This document shows, piece after piece, positions 6,715 to 27,517 of a DNA stretch of 29,158 bases. Origin of the DNA: a virus; IMG/VR virus record IMGVR_UViG_3300045257_000097, positions 1 through 29,158 of that record; one strand, given 5' to 3'. Both the position numbers and the translations under genes were made by a program. Every line of letters begins with the position of its first letter. Within the stretch, counting starts at the first letter, position 1. A model generated the notes under the pieces. That model saw only the letters and a program-made list of their open reading frames with translations. It was not told the DNA's origin and searched no databases.

Positions 6715-6990
6715 ATGAAAAACTTAAAAACTACACCGCAACAAATGATTGATGAGTGTTTAGCTAATATAGTTACTTTAAATGGGTATATAGCTGATCA
6801 ACAAAAGTTAATAGACCAAAACAACGAGGATATAACAGTTTATTTAGCCAATATAACTATATTACAAAACCTTATTGTAACAAGACAAAACAATAATGTA
6901 GAAAGAAATGCCCAAATTGGGGCGTTAAATGATCGTATTGGCATAGAGAACGATATAATAAATTATATAAATTCTTTACCAAAAAAATGA
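6715..6990 (+). CDS. Small coiled-coil protein of unknown function
   Basis: The 91-residue protein is almost entirely helical. It has regularly spaced Ile and Leu (LNGYIADQQKLIDQNNEDI, then ITILQNLIV) with many Gln and Asn between, as in a coiled-coil oligomer. It has no membrane segment or signal peptide. The ATG follows an AACGAGGA ribosome binding site, and its stop overlaps the start of the Mu F-like gene by four bases. Its place after the fibre gene suggests a fibre chaperone, a trimerisation partner or a minor structural protein. No family is recognised. Confidence 0.7.
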   Translation: MKNLKTTPQQMIDECLANIVTLNGYIADQQKLIDQNNEDITVYLANITILQNLIVTRQNNNVERNAQIGALNDRIGIENDIINYINSLPKK

Positions 6991-7832
6991 CTTACGCTGT
7001 AGCGAAGGTAATTACGTTTCCAAAGTACGAAGCCCTTAAGTATGAACGATACATACTTAAGAGGCTACGGGGAACTATTTCGCTTATAAACATACGTTTA
7101 AAACCTTTCTTTGCTAACAATAAACTTGATAGCGATACTAGAATTGATGATTATGTTGATGATTTACAAAACCTATTAACTGACATAGCTACATTTATAA
7201 CCGTCAATGATAATCAGCTTATAAGAGATCTATTGTTAACTGGTAGATCAATATTACAATACACCAATAAACAACTTTACAATTCATTCAAAGATATTCT
7301 AACTGTAAAAGTAGCGTCACCCAGTTTGATGCTAAATATTTTAAATCAACCGCTATTAAATCCAGATATTGATTTACTATTAAAATCCTGGGTATCAACA
7401 AACGTTAGTTTAATAAAGACCATACAAACAGACTTATTAAGCCAAGTTGGCTTTGTTATAGAAAGTAGTTACCGCTCAGCTTTATCAATGCCAGAGCTAA
7501 CGAAACAATTACAAAAAAGGTTCAATATCTCTCGCAACAAAGCTCGTCTTATTGCTAGAGATCAAACTGCTAAACTTCATTCTGATTACATTAAGCATGA
7601 ACATAAACAAGTAGGCATAACGCAATATGTATGGCTAACATCTAATGATGAGCGTGTAAGAACTAGCCATAAAGTGTTGAATGGCAAAGTATGTCAATGG
7701 AATGATGAGCTAACTTATAGGGATTCGGAAGATGGAAGGCTAAAGAGCAAAAGATCCATTGGTGGTGTCCCGTTACAAGTGGGACAAGACTTCCAATGTC
7801 GTTGCTCTTTAGCTGCTATCGTTAAATTATAG
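6987..7832 (+). CDS. Phage head morphogenesis protein, Mu gpF-like
   Basis: The 281-residue protein is a minor head protein of the Mu gpF/SPP1 gp7 family. The family motif lies in the C-terminal part: YVWLTSNDERVRTSHKVLNG followed by a final CRC segment (DFQCRCSLAAIV). The N-terminal two thirds are helical. These proteins bind the portal and may be injected with DNA or guide capsid assembly. The start overlaps the preceding gene (ATGA). Its stop codon overlaps by six bases, tail to tail, with the stop of the outer-membrane gene on the other strand, so no intrinsic terminator separates them. Confidence 0.87.
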   Translation: MTYAVAKVITFPKYEALKYERYILKRLRGTISLINIRLKPFFANNKLDSDTRIDDYVDDLQNLLTDIATFITVNDNQLIRDLLLTGRSILQYTNKQLYNSFKDILTVKVASPSLMLNILNQPLLNPDIDLLLKSWVSTNVSLIKTIQTDLLSQVGFVIESSYRSALSMPELTKQLQKRFNISRNKARLIARDQTAKLHSDYIKHEHKQVGITQYVWLTSNDERVRTSHKVLNGKVCQWNDELTYRDSEDGRLKSKRSIGGVPLQVGQDFQCRCSLAAIVKL

Positions 7833-8474
7833 ATTAAGTCTTATTGCTGTCATTATAGCATGACCTTTGTAATTATTTATGTACTCACCTAAATGTTGAT
7901 AACTATAACCAATTTCTAGATGTGTATTATTAAATAATTTTCTGTTTACACCTAAGTAAATCGCATAAGTCAAATCTTTTTTTTCTGATATTACATCTGA
8001 ATCCAGTCCTTTTGTCAATACGCCTTTTGTTTTTGAGATTCCAGCACCTAAGCCCCCATATAGTGTATTACCTTTAATTTTTAATAAATCTACAAAAAGA
8101 TTGATTTTCCCTGTGGTGACTTTTCCATAAGTGCAAATCTTATTATCATCTACCAAAGGATTTGAATTTCTTTGAGCACACAGATTAGCATGGTAAAAAG
8201 CATGTCTTATATTAGAAAAATGTTCGATTGATAAATCTATTCTGGCGTTGTCAGCAATATCATAACCAATAGCAAAACCAATAAATGGGGTTTTTTTACT
8301 AGTCATAGCACCAACTTTTTGCGGGCTAAAATGTCCCAATATAGGTTTTATATAATAATTAGAATTTTCAGCTTTGGCTACGTTTACAAACGTTAGAACT
8401 ACCGCTCCTAAAAGAACATTTAGTAATATGTGCAGTAGTATAATAATTAAATAAGCTCTCGTTTTTGTTAGCAT
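7827..8474 (-). CDS. Outer-membrane beta-barrel protein, Rickettsia Adr1/Adr2-like (cargo gene)
   Basis: I choose ATG at 8474, which has GAGG six bases upstream, giving 215 residues. A signal peptide is clear: basic start, long hydrophobic stretch, cleavage after AKA at residue 35. The mature part alternates polar and hydrophobic residues in beta strands and ends in an aromatic/hydrophobic strand (YKGHAIMTAIRLNL). The segments GYDIADNARIDLSIEHFS and NNYKGHAIMTAIRLNL resemble, from memory, Rickettsia Adr1/Adr2 surface antigens, which bind host factors such as vitronectin. Two Cys flank an extracellular-loop-like stretch. It is the only minus-strand gene among the head genes and has its own upstream region, which fits a moron. 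Other small 8-stranded barrels are possible. Confidence 0.72.
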   Translation of the reverse strand: MLTKTRAYLIIILLHILLNVLLGAVVLTFVNVAKAENSNYYIKPILGHFSPQKVGAMTSKKTPFIGFAIGYDIADNARIDLSIEHFSNIRHAFYHANLCAQRNSNPLVDDNKICTYGKVTTGKINLFVDLLKIKGNTLYGGLGAGISKTKGVLTKGLDSDVISEKKDLTYAIYLGVNRKLFNNTHLEIGYSYQHLGEYINNYKGHAIMTAIRLNL

Positions 8475-8552
8475 AATAACCTCGTATTTAAATTGTAAAA
8501 GTAACAAAGGTTAACAGTAAAAAGTTAAATTATCAATAATTAATTAATAATA

Positions 8553-9729: not shown

Positions 9730-10188
9730 ATGGCATACGGTTATATATATCCAGAACCGCAAGCAGGTCAACCTTACGATACTACTATCAAAACAAATGA
9801 CAGTTTTGCGGCTGAAGAAGTCATAGGGTTTGGATTACCTTTGATGAGAGGGTCAGACAAAGAAAAACAAGTAAAAGTATTCAACGGTGGTATTACAACA
9901 AAACTGTTAGGTATTTCCGGTTATTCAGCTACTAGAATTGAAGGTTCATACGCGCCTCAATCTATGGTTACAGTAGTCACTATGGGTAGAGTATGGGTAC
10001 CTCTTGTAGGTACTGTAACGGTTCAACCTGGTCAAACAGCTTATCTTAATATTACTGATGACATAATCACTAACGTTGCCGTAACAGATGAAACAATCGC
10101 TATAGGCAGATTTTTAACCGGTGGTACTACTAATCCATCAGTACAAAAGCTATTCGTATTAGAACTTGAAGTCGGATTTGAGGAGTAG
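9730..10188 (+). CDS. Capsid decoration/cement-like protein 1, DUF2190-like
   Basis: This 152-residue beta-rich protein belongs to a tandem set of three related genes. Shared blocks are an N-terminal GQPYDTTIKTNDSFAAEE-type segment, a central MVTVVTMGRVWVPLVG core and a C-terminal IAIGRFLTGGT. DUF2190-type proteins lie next to the capsid gene in many phages and are thought to stabilise the head surface. The start lies 1 bp after the stop of the protease/scaffold gene. It is closest to the third copy. Confidence 0.7.
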   Translation: MAYGYIYPEPQAGQPYDTTIKTNDSFAAEEVIGFGLPLMRGSDKEKQVKVFNGGITTKLLGISGYSATRIEGSYAPQSMVTVVTMGRVWVPLVGTVTVQPGQTAYLNITDDIITNVAVTDETIAIGRFLTGGTTNPSVQKLFVLELEVGFEE

Positions 10189-10692
10189 ATGGAATACGGA
10201 CAACATGCACCGGCATTAGCTGGTCAATTAGAAAGTTCACCTCTTAACATCAAAGATAGTTTCACAGCTTCTGGAGTCATAGATTTTGGCAGACCAGTAA
10301 TGAGGCACACTCCTCTAGAAAAGACTTGTGCGATATACAACAACTTTGGAGCGACTGTTTTAAACAAATTCTTAGGCGTAGCAGTTTACAACGCTCTTAG
10401 TCTTCCAAGAGAGGCTAATCCATTAGGCGGAGTATATGTCGATGGAGATGCTGTGACTGTACTAACAGCCGGTAGAGTATGGACAACTCTAAAACCGGGG
10501 CTTGTTGTTACAGCTGGCGACTATTGTTACATAGATGAAAGTACTACTGTTATTAAGGATGACTTTTCTAATATTCCAGTAGGCACATTTATAACAGTAG
10601 GAAGGTTCTTAACTGGTGGTACGTCAGATGGGCTCAACGGAGAAAAGGTATTTCTTTTAGAAATCCAAACGGGCTTTAACGCCCCACTTTAA
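10189..10692 (+). CDS. Capsid decoration/cement-like protein 2, DUF2190-like
   Basis: The second copy has 167 residues and starts immediately after the stop of the first, with GAGGAG inside the end of the preceding gene as ribosome binding site. It keeps the core (DAVTVLTAGRVWTTL) and the end (ITVGRFLTGGT), but has extra residues around the middle (REANPLGGVYVDGD) and is the most divergent of the three. The difference suggests a separate position or role on the head. Confidence 0.68.
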   Translation: MEYGQHAPALAGQLESSPLNIKDSFTASGVIDFGRPVMRHTPLEKTCAIYNNFGATVLNKFLGVAVYNALSLPREANPLGGVYVDGDAVTVLTAGRVWTTLKPGLVVTAGDYCYIDESTTVIKDDFSNIPVGTFITVGRFLTGGTSDGLNGEKVFLLEIQTGFNAPL

Positions 10693-10714
10693 CTAATACA
10701 TAGAGAAAAATAAT

Positions 10715-11176
10715 ATGGCATACGATTACAAATACACAGTAGCGCAGGACGGACAAATAGTCGACTGCACTATAAATGTTAAAACAAGCTTTGGAGCTGA
10801 AGAGGCTATCCCCTTTGGTCAACCCTTGATTAGGGGTACAGATCCACAAAAACAAGTCAAGAGATTTCCAGCTGGCGGTGCATCTACTCTCAAATTCCTT
10901 GGAGTATCGGGTTATGACCCAGAGCAAATAGGTGGTTCTTATCCAACAGCTAGCATGGTTACGGTTGTTGAGCAAGGCAGAGTATGGGTGCCATTGATAG
11001 GAGCTATAGCGGTAGATGCTGGAGACTGGGCTTACTTAGACAGAAGCACTGGCTTGATTACGGATATAGAGCCTGCATCAGCAAATAAAATCACTATAGG
11101 TAGATTCTTAACTGGCGGTGCGTCATCTGGTACCAACCTATTTGCGCTTGAAATAATTCCGGGTTTAGAAGTTTAA
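10715..11176 (+). CDS. Capsid decoration/cement-like protein 3, DUF2190-like
   Basis: The third copy has 153 residues and is clearly a paralogue of the first: both begin MAY, both share FGxPLxRGxD, GRVWVPL and IGRFLTGG. It has its own weak ribosome binding site (AGAG) and is followed after 23 bp by the major capsid gene. Three copies in a row is more than usual for this module. Confidence 0.7.
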   Translation: MAYDYKYTVAQDGQIVDCTINVKTSFGAEEAIPFGQPLIRGTDPQKQVKRFPAGGASTLKFLGVSGYDPEQIGGSYPTASMVTVVEQGRVWVPLIGAIAVDAGDWAYLDRSTGLITDIEPASANKITIGRFLTGGASSGTNLFALEIIPGLEV

Positions 11177-14897: not shown

Positions 14898-15344
14898 ATG
14901 GCTAAAACTTTCGATCCAAACCAGGTGACTGTAACAATAACAGGGCTTAACTTAAGCCATATTGTAACCGGATTTTCAAAAGATACATTTGTAAGCATTA
15001 CATGGGACGAAGACTTATTTAATGATGACAATGATGCAAATGGAAATTTAATCAGATTCAAAAACAATAACTATAATGCAAAGCTAACACTAACACTAAG
15101 TCAAGGGTCACCTTCAAATGAAATTCTATCAAATTTTATGAATTTAGATAGAGCGGTAAACGTAGGTGGTGCTTTTGCAATAATGGTAAAGGATAACAAT
15201 GGTGGTACTTTAATAACCAGTACATACGCTTATATTCTTACTCCTCCAACTGTAGAGTTTGGAACTTCGGCATCAAACAGAAGTTGGGTAATCAGAATGG
15301 GTGAGGCTGTAGGAACTATTGGGGGCATCAATGGTCAAAACTAA
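14898..15344 (+). CDS. Tail tube protein, DUF3277 family
   Basis: The 148-residue protein has the DUF3277 pattern: TFDPNQVTVTITG at the start, FVSITWDEDLF, a middle strand RFKNNNYNAKLTLTLSQGS with NEILSNFMNLD, and a C-terminal PPTVEFGTSASNRSW. It forms the inner tube inside the sheath. The ribosome binding site is AGAGAG. The next gene starts inside its end. Confidence 0.85.
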   Translation: MAKTFDPNQVTVTITGLNLSHIVTGFSKDTFVSITWDEDLFNDDNDANGNLIRFKNNNYNAKLTLTLSQGSPSNEILSNFMNLDRAVNVGGAFAIMVKDNNGGTLITSTYAYILTPPTVEFGTSASNRSWVIRMGEAVGTIGGINGQN

Positions 15345-15759
15345 CAAAACTATTAATGGTCACGAATATGAGTTTATGGCGTTGCCAGCTATGCATAACT
15401 ACACTTTGTTTTTAAAGTTTAGTGCTACAGTTGGTGACTCGTTGAAAAGCATATTTAGCGTTATGGATAATAGCGGATTTGGTGGTTTAGGCGAAGGTAT
15501 ATCATTGGTTTTAAAATCATTATATACCAACGATCCTAAGGGTGATCTAATGCTAGAGATCATGTCTCAAACTACTAGAGATGGTGTAGCTATAAACAAA
15601 AGTACATTTGACAAGTTTTATACTGGCAATATCGAAGAGATGACGGAGGCGTTAACTCAATCTATCATCGTACATTTCAAGGGTTTTTTGCCAATCGACC
15701 GGCTCTCTGGACTCCTTTTGAACCAAGGAGTGGTGACAACAGAGAGTTCGGAAGTTTAG
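15331..15759 (+). CDS. Tail assembly chaperone, short form (gpG-like)
   Basis: The ATG at 15331 follows GGGGG and lies within the last codons of the tube gene; it gives 142 residues. Features include a helical core (HNYTLFLKFSATVGDSL, GISLVLKSLYTN) and the end LTQSIIVHFKGFLPIDRLSG. Position between tube and tape measure is diagnostic for the G/T chaperone pair. The short form is made by normal termination at 15757-15759; a fraction of ribosomes should shift at 15684-15690 and make the long form. Confidence 0.78.
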   Translation: MVKTNKTINGHEYEFMALPAMHNYTLFLKFSATVGDSLKSIFSVMDNSGFGGLGEGISLVLKSLYTNDPKGDLMLEIMSQTTRDGVAINKSTFDKFYTGNIEEMTEALTQSIIVHFKGFLPIDRLSGLLLNQGVVTTESSEV

Positions 15760-15938
15760 ACGAGAACTTAAAGATAAAGTGGTTTATGTATAGACCACTT
15801 TTAGAGGGTAAGGTTACATTTGCAGAATTAAACACCTGCATAACTATAGATGATTTGTTTGAAATTAATGCGTTATTAGATATGCAAGCTGATATCAAAT
15901 ATCAATTAGAGAAAGAATCTGCTTTAAAGCAAAGGTGA
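15331..15938 (+). CDS. Tail assembly chaperone, long frameshift form (gpG-T-like)
   Basis: A -1 shift at T-TTT-TTG (15684-15690) moves ribosomes from the 15331 frame into the frame ending at TGA 15936-15938, with no stop between. The fusion has about 202 residues. The T extension begins FFANRPALWTPFEP and ends ALLDMQADIKYQLEKESALK, a helical tail common to tape-measure-binding chaperones. Without the shift, 15760-15944 would be a 185-bp gap with no start or ribosome binding site, although its -1 frame is fully open. The G part is thought to bind the tube protein and the T part the tape measure. Confidence 0.82.
15681..15746 (+). promoter_or_regulatory. Programmed -1 ribosomal frameshift signal
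   Basis: The run GGGTTTTTTG (15681-15690) contains T-TTT-TTG and also G-GGT-TTT in the correct register. After a 12-nt spacer comes a two-part hairpin: outer stem CTCTCTG 15703-15709 with CAGAGAG 15740-15746, and inner stem ACTCCTT 15711-15717 with AAGGAGT 15725-15731, both perfect, with a 7-nt loop. This is the standard layout of a -1 frameshift site. Confidence 0.85.
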
Positions 15939-15944
15939 TAGTTT

Positions 15945-17534
15945 ATGATTTTAAGGGAAATAGTAACGAAACTTAGCTTTCTTATTGATCAGAAGAAGCT
16001 TTTTAAATTTAATGATACTATTGCTCAAATTAAAGATAATCTTAATGAACTTGGCAAGTATTCTAATTTAGCTAAAAAATCTTTATTAGGACTAACTGGA
16101 ACAGCTACAGCCATAAGTTTATTAAGTCTTCATACTGCTAAAGTTGCGAAAACCGCAGACCAATTAGCTGAAAAACTAGGTATAACAGCGGAGGAGCTAC
16201 AAAGCATAGAGCTAGCAGCTCAGTCTACTGGACTTGGCGTTGGAGAGCTTAGCGAATCCATGAATGTATTTCATAAGAAGCTAGGTGATATTGGTCAAGG
16301 TAATAATGAAGCTACTAGAGAAATGGCTCGCTTAGGTATTGTCTTTACTGGTGTTAATGGTAAAGTAAAATCCTCATTTCAATTATACGAAGAACTAGCA
16401 CAAAAGATTGATTCTATCAATAGCCCAATAGCTAGAGCTTCAGCATTACAAAAAGTTTTAGGTACTGATAACATAGAACTTGCCAGGTTGTTTAAGAATG
16501 GTGGTGAGTCTCTAAGGCAACAGCGTATAGAAATAGAAAAGATAGGCTATATAATTGATTCTAGGGGTATAAAGAGCTCTAAGGATTATATAAAGTCATG
16601 GTCAGAACTACAAATAATAGTTAGCAGTGTTAAGAAAGAACTTTCTATTAAGTTCATGCCTGTATTCAATAACATGATAAAGGCATTCAAGGGTTGGTTC
16701 ATTGAGAACAGAAAGATAATATCACAAAATATATCTTCATTCATAAACGTATTAAGTATAGCTTTAAATATATTGTTTAGAGCTTTACAATTGATTATCA
16801 CCCCTATTAATAAAGTAATAGAGGTAATGGGAGGTTTTGAGAACGCTGTATCAGTTGTTGGAATTGCTTTAGCCTTTATACTAACACCAAGAATCTTAGC
16901 GGCTGTATCAGCATTTAGAGCTTTAACAGTTGCCATGTTAACTAACCCATTAACATGGATAATAGCTGGATTAGCAGCTTTAGGAGTAGCTATAGGGTTA
17001 GTTATAAACGATCTATATCACTGGGTGCAAGGCAATGAGTCTGCTGTTGGGATAATTGGTGTTCACTGGTATAAATTCAAAGTAAAGTTTTTTGGCGTTA
17101 TAGACGATATCACTGATTATTTTGTAAGTAAGTTTAAAGACTTAGCTAGTTGGTTTACTGGCTTTTGGAATGATACTTTAAACTTTGATAATATAGTTAA
17201 TAAGATATCAAAAGCCACTGGTATAAAGAAGGCTGAAGATATAGAGATTAAACTTGCTAGAGACGCAGCTAGACCAAGATTTACCGGTTTAACTGGTGCT
17301 ACGTCAGCTATATCATTAAGCCCAAATTCTCCTACAAGTGGAGTTATCTCGGGCAATAATTATAATAGCGATAAAAAGGTAAACCAATATATTACCGAGA
17401 ATATCACTGTAACTGTTCCATCTGGAACTAGTAGTGAACAATCAGCGTCTATCGCTACCCAAATAGCTCAAGAAATGCAACTACAGTTTAATGTAAATAT
17501 GCAGCGTGGTATTGACTCTATAAGTGGAAGGTAA
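15945..17534 (+). CDS. Tail tape measure protein
   Basis: This 529-residue protein follows the chaperone frame and sets tail length. The N-terminal 250 residues are helical, with AVAKTADQLAEKLGITAEELQSIE-like segments typical of tape measures (here from residue 65). Residues 300-355 are strongly hydrophobic (VVGIALAFIL and LTWIIAGLAALGVAIGLVI), suited to crossing a membrane at DNA entry. The C-terminus is more polar. At about 1.5 angstrom per residue, the usual relation, the tail would be near 80 nm. The ribosome binding site is AAAGG nine bases before ATG. Confidence 0.85.
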   Translation: MILREIVTKLSFLIDQKKLFKFNDTIAQIKDNLNELGKYSNLAKKSLLGLTGTATAISLLSLHTAKVAKTADQLAEKLGITAEELQSIELAAQSTGLGVGELSESMNVFHKKLGDIGQGNNEATREMARLGIVFTGVNGKVKSSFQLYEELAQKIDSINSPIARASALQKVLGTDNIELARLFKNGGESLRQQRIEIEKIGYIIDSRGIKSSKDYIKSWSELQIIVSSVKKELSIKFMPVFNNMIKAFKGWFIENRKIISQNISSFINVLSIALNILFRALQLIITPINKVIEVMGGFENAVSVVGIALAFILTPRILAAVSAFRALTVAMLTNPLTWIIAGLAALGVAIGLVINDLYHWVQGNESAVGIIGVHWYKFKVKFFGVIDDITDYFVSKFKDLASWFTGFWNDTLNFDNIVNKISKATGIKKAEDIEIKLARDAARPRFTGLTGATSAISLSPNSPTSGVISGNNYNSDKKVNQYITENITVTVPSGTSSEQSASIATQIAQEMQLQFNVNMQRGIDSISGR

Positions 17535-26980: not shown

Positions 26981-27119
26981 TTTTATTACCTTTAAAAATT
27001 AAATATATAATCTCTAACAAGACTAAAAATACCGTAAATATTACCGAAAAACGAAAGTCGATTAAAAAAGAAGCTATTATAAATATTAAAAAAAAATTCA
27101 GCCTCCTGTAATTATTCAT
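26973..27119 (-). CDS. Small membrane protein, 48 residues
   Basis: ATG 27119 to TGA 26973-26975. The product has a basic start (NNYRRL), two hydrophobic stretches (FFLIFIIASFLI and FSVIFTVFLVLLEIIYLIF), and the end KGNKND. It overlaps both neighbours by 8 bp. Its last codons match the end of the 27311-27517 gene, which also ends GNKND. Confidence 0.5.
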   Translation of the reverse strand: MNNYRRLNFFLIFIIASFLIDFRFSVIFTVFLVLLEIIYLIFKGNKND

Positions 27120-27318
27120 TTTTATAACTCAACTTTTCTTTAATACCTTTTAGTTCATAAATTATTTCGTCTATTTGTTCATGCTGAGATCGATGAATAC
27201 TCTTCTCCCCTCTTGCCTTGTATCGCTCCTCCATAATCTTGGAGTCATTATCTGAACATGTAAGAATGTGAAACAATGTAAAGCCGGTTAAAATCCCGAT
27301 AATTATTATATTAATCAT
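27112..27318 (-). CDS. Single-span small protein, copy 2 of a tandem pair
   Basis: This 68-residue protein has a hydrophobic N-terminal anchor (IIIIGILTGFTLFHILTC), then CSDND, and a charged helix with RYKARGEKSIH, DEIIYELKGIKEK. It is a paralogue of the gene just upstream. The Cys after the anchor recalls a lipobox, but the preceding residue is Thr, so lipidation is doubtful. It is not a recognised family. Confidence 0.65.
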   Translation of the reverse strand: MINIIIIGILTGFTLFHILTCSDNDSKIMEERYKARGEKSIHRSQHEQIDEIIYELKGIKEKLSYKNE

Positions 27319-27517
27319 TTTTATTACCCATCTTTTTATTAAGAACTTTTAGCTCGTGAATTATTTCATCCATTTGTTCTGAATTATATTTATGAATATA
27401 TTTCTCACCCCTTGAATTATATCTTGATTCTCTTTGTATATCCTCATTATCCGAACATGATTTAATGCTTATTAATACAATCGTAGTAAATACTATTGTA
27501 ATTATTGTATTAATCAT
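27311..27517 (-). CDS. Single-span small protein, copy 1 of a tandem pair
   Basis: This 68-residue protein shares the layout of the next gene: anchor (IITIVFTTIVLISIKSC), CSDNE, RYNSRGEKYIH, and DEIIHELKVLNKK. Conserved positions are CSDN, RY..RGEK.IH and DEII.ELK. It begins directly after the helicase stop and overlaps its paralogue by 8 bp. The charged helix could make a coiled-coil contact in the cytoplasm. Function unknown. Confidence 0.65.
   Translation of the reverse strand: MINTIITIVFTTIVLISIKSCSDNEDIQRESRYNSRGEKYIHKYNSEQMDEIIHELKVLNKKMGNKND

Follow-up and report, generated by a model that had tools for sequence, protein, structure and literature searches.

The G/T locus among the late genes

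The stretch of DNA analysed here in its entirety (the window) comprises 29,158 bases of an IMG/VR virus record and carries late genes of a phage with a contractile tail, coding for the portal, a Mu F-like protein, the major capsid protein, the tail terminator, the sheath (DUF3383), the tube, a chaperone, the tape measure and the baseplate. The gene at 14898..15344 (+ strand) specifies the presumed tail tube protein, so named from its place after the sheath gene; its product matches PHROG 280 (KPP10_Orf10-like) with E 8.9e-39 and Pfam KPP10_Orf10 with E 2.4e-4, the latter under the Pfam cut-off. Downstream of it lies G (15331..15759, +), which starts with an ATG preceded by GGGGG and encodes a tail assembly chaperone with a zero-frame product of 142 aa. 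T is an open frame in the −1 register (15690..15938, +), with 82 codons past the slip position (15690-15935) and a TGA at 15936-15938, and the tape measure protein gene (15945..17534, +; PHROG 8125, E 3.6e-39) begins directly after it at 15945, just as the preliminary description of this DNA had stated. The order typical of a lambda-type module, i.e., tail tube, G, overlapping T and tape measure, is therefore present in the window. The G-T fusion has a predicted length of 202 aa, with the junction at F119-L120|A121 as numbered from the ATG at 15331, a refinement of the preliminary description.

In profile searches, G gave matches to PHROG 1613, a family of tail assembly chaperones (E 6.5e-5), and to Pfam PF21822 Phage_TAC_15 (E 6e-4; 20.7 bits, just under the cut-off of 22). 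In the AlphaFold model of G, confidence is high as far as about residue 120, where the slip falls, and low in the zero-frame tail (123-142); in a fold search, the model matches annotated tail assembly chaperones. T is modelled fairly confidently as a small helical fold of its own without a named match. Among solved structures, neither G nor T had convincing sequence relatives, a PDB fold search with G returned nothing significant, and the fold search with T gave one weak match. No match was obtained by tblastn with G against isolated phages, and the search of isolated phages with T gave distant matches; the first scan of genome contigs yielded none and the second two prophages.

Several other features of the window were recorded. 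An HD_4 domain protein (HD phosphohydrolase-like) is encoded near its start (253-882, +), and among the structural genes, but read from the other strand, lies an outer-membrane beta-barrel gene (7827-8507, −), its product matching OMP_b-brl with E 2.7e-5, under the cut-off, and PagL weakly. Three tandem similar ORFs (152, 167 and 153 aa) precede the major capsid gene at 9730-11176, and two tandem similar ORFs of 68 aa each are found near the right end (27112-27517).

The slip site and the downstream hairpin

The slippery run GGGTTTTTTG (15681..15690, +) is read in the G frame as AAG GGT TTT TTG, and therefore both G_GGT_TTT (15681-15687) and T_TTT_TTG (15684-15690) stand in the X_XXY_YYZ register near the 3′ end of G, as the preliminary description had claimed. 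When the genes of the + strand were scanned for in-register X_XXY_YYZ sites, this one alone had a long −1 frame together with a strong fold on its 3′ side. The scan also touched A_AAA_AAA followed by TGA (6981-6990), which ends a 91-aa ORF (6715-6990) and is in register toward the Mu F-like gene, whose start is at 6987; the fold near this A7 site is weak, and the site most likely represents plain ATGA start-stop coupling.

Relatives were gathered by a search with G and then with T. An in-register slip heptamer is present in nearly all of 25 viral loci; the pattern did not reveal a canonical one in L024 and L031, and in L033 the only candidate is GGGTTTT. The near relatives have TTTTTTG with GG, GA or CC before it, and relatives one step further away carry CCCTTTTTTC or CCCTTTTTTT. 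Several distant relatives (L034, L036, L037, L038 and L048) retain CCCTTTTA alone, with four T at the same place, and distant members also add or use C_CCT_TTT. Since T_TTT_TTG is kept in near relatives and CCCTTTTA in far ones, the conserved element is NNT TTT, and the P-site/A-site pairs move by one codon between lineages. NNT TTT occupies the slip in 22/22 of the loci checked, which had been picked because the slip could be placed in them, though the GC-rich members usually choose other codons; under each locus's own Phe/Pro codon usage, the product of frequencies is ~1e-15, a figure that ignores relatedness. The expected conservation of the slip site was thus found for T_TTT_TTG/NNT TTT in nearly all relatives, but not for G_GGT_TTT, whose register is private to the window phage, near relatives retaining only T_TTT_TTG.

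The same comparison bears on whether the polymerase, rather than the ribosome, slips on the six-T run. The retention of the T6 run in the closest relatives would suit transcriptional slippage. Six T, however, make a short run for polymerase slippage, and the distant relatives with only four T are better accounted for by tandem tRNA slippage, so that a transcriptional origin of the shift is rejected as very improbable.

A candidate stimulatory stem-loop (15699..15751, +) begins 8-12 nt past the slip. Its outer stem is formed by CTCTCTG (15703-15709) paired with CAGAGAG (15740-15746) and can be extended to 15699-15709/15740-15751, and its inner stem by ACTCCTT (15711-15717) paired with AAGGAGT (15725-15731). 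The predicted fold of 15691-15770 has an energy of −24.5 kcal/mol with a z of −1.87 relative to dinucleotide shuffles, and is therefore only moderate. Among the 60-nt windows of the late region, the hairpin nevertheless falls in the lowest 0.5%; its fold gave P = 0.0075 in the comparison with synonymous recodings of T and P = 0.08 in that with permutations of T's own synonymous codons.

In the nearest relative, L012, a hairpin on the same outer arms is stronger than that of the window (−30.2 kcal/mol, z −6.7), and the outer-stem arms differ between the two at 1/22 sites compared with 16/36 sites around them (Fisher P 0.001). The inner stem is not retained in L012; L015 and L016 have different stems, and in L013 and L014 the hairpin is weak or essentially absent. 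In the eight-sequence alignment of relatives, neither a consensus RNA structure nor covariation was detected, pair counts being within those of shuffles, and the mark of a stimulator, a downstream stem-loop that relatives keep through compensatory changes, was not found. Of the two-stem stimulator proposed earlier, then, both stems are indeed there and the outer arms are held in L012, but the inner stem is lost and no structure is common to the relatives. A stimulatory role in the sub-lineage of the window is plausible. The sequence comparison leads us to conclude that the outer stem would matter more than the inner one and that the hairpin does not define the module. Two overlapping heptamers and a strong hairpin occur together only in the window phage, and it is conceivable, albeit rather unlikely, that they make frameshifting exceptionally frequent or let it take place at two sites; if so, the ratio of G to G-T would be atypical.

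Conservation, selection and predicted expression of T

T was found in the −1 frame of a G-like zero frame in the 25 viral loci (the zero frame of one, L032, is truncated), in isolated phages and in two prophages. The one exception is a Leminorella grimontii prophage (L036, the same as L049, 2980-3090), in which a stop interrupts the T frame although the slip site is retained, and which is probably decaying. T is under strong purifying selection: in six near relatives, the dN/dS of the T part past the zero-frame stop is 0.04-0.22 where dS is unsaturated, and the differences are concentrated at third positions. W, RP and INALLD are retained in T (24 sequences), and the mean column identity is 43% for T vs. 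26% for G. The prediction that the −1 frame and the slip would recur in close relatives has therefore held, the T frame being kept except in the decaying prophage and the slip in nearly all loci.

A separate small gene, translated from its own start or by reinitiation after the G stop, could also lie here. This arrangement is how the downstream part is annotated in AP22, Brutus, SOI901 and MiCath, and the window does have an ATG at T codon 35, the only early one. That ATG, however, is without a Shine-Dalgarno motif and is replaced by Ile in L012 and L016. No T start with a Shine-Dalgarno motif was detected in the window, and neither a conserved start nor a conserved Shine-Dalgarno motif among the relatives, in agreement with the earlier claim that the extension has no start or ribosome binding site of its own. 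Moreover, T is conserved from the slip on, upstream of any possible start, the slip codons being conserved at the nucleotide level; in L012, a T-frame stop stands two codons before the slip. Because the first 45 T codons of L012, L016, L023 and L027 include no start codon, a separate gene or reinitiation is rejected as very improbable, and a conserved −1 coding extension without its own start is what the loci contain. A chance open frame, or one gene split by an indel or by a sequencing or assembly error, is the least credible reading. For an open stretch of 84 codons, the probability of a chance origin in this sequence is about 0.0014 per try, which is not negligible for a whole genome; but many independent contigs, and isolated phages too, show the same divided gene with its slip and T domain, and T is under purifying selection, so that conservation across relatives rules this reading out.

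The locus is thus almost certainly a G/T module of the lambda type, in a phage with a contractile tail, and would yield a G-T fusion via −1 slippage, and the comparative data support the core claim of a putative −1 frameshifted G/T chaperone with an unannotated T part. Most ribosomes would complete G (142 aa). In a minority, the tRNAs on UUU and UUG at 15685-15690 would slip back by one base to UUU UUU, and these ribosomes would read 82 further codons to produce the 202-aa fusion; the hairpin 8-12 nt downstream probably raises the shift rate in the lineage of the window. By analogy with lambda, the role of the G part may be to coat the tape measure protein, and that of the T part to recruit the tail tube protein.

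Relation to known G/T systems

The G/GT tail assembly chaperone of phage lambda is reportedly made by −1 frameshifting, as described by Xu, Hendrix and Duda in 2004. The window resembles lambda in gene order, in a −1 shift late in G, in a T without a start and in the position of T just before the tape measure gene, but differs in the T_TTT_TTG slip, the contractile tail and the candidate downstream hairpin. The G/T −1 frameshift is established for tail chaperones (review PMC5009743). In Vandenendeviridae/Andersonviridae (Adele), the GTTTTT slip is conserved and the T part is routinely mis-annotated (PMC12846349). These phages share with the window a contractile tail, a T-rich slip and a T mostly recorded as a hypothetical gene of its own, but they form a separate lineage, and PAK_P1 is without a canonical in-register X_XXY_YYZ at the site. 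A second close contractile-tailed precedent is the tail chaperone frameshift of Moogle (PMC4319497), whose "tape measure chaperone" matches the G model of the window with E 4.7e-3.

In Obolenskvirus (AP22), Rosemountvirus (yarpen) and Dibbivirus (DIBBI, PSKM), the tape measure gene is likewise preceded by a −1 T frame, and the in-register slip reads TTTTTTA, TTTTTTC or CCCTTTT, but the T identity is 30-43% and in part statistically weak. The −1 T frame with an in-register slip was located in DIBBI, PSKM, AP22, fHy-Eco03, yarpen, Brutus and SOI901 (L037 2465-2725, L038 2465-2725, L039 2501-2767, L041 1905-2198, L042 1878-2147, L043 1950-2267 and L044 1845-2141), where it is unannotated or given as a separate hypothetical gene. 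A joined G-T gene is annotated in none of the isolated-phage records examined; the unmarked G/T arrangement was found in these seven phages and in MiCath. With the terms used, the literature yielded neither a description of this frameshift in DUF3383 phages nor a test of the heptamer UUUUUUG. The view that G/T frameshifting is well known while its T part is easily left unannotated agrees with several isolated-phage records that omit or split T.

The window locus is a correct and ordinary addition to the known G/T frameshift class; it completes the tail gene annotation of an uncultured phage lineage and leaves the understanding of phage tail assembly unchanged. Public records omit or split T for several genera of isolated phages, so that many annotations would be corrected by a slip-plus-T profile derived from the family of the window.
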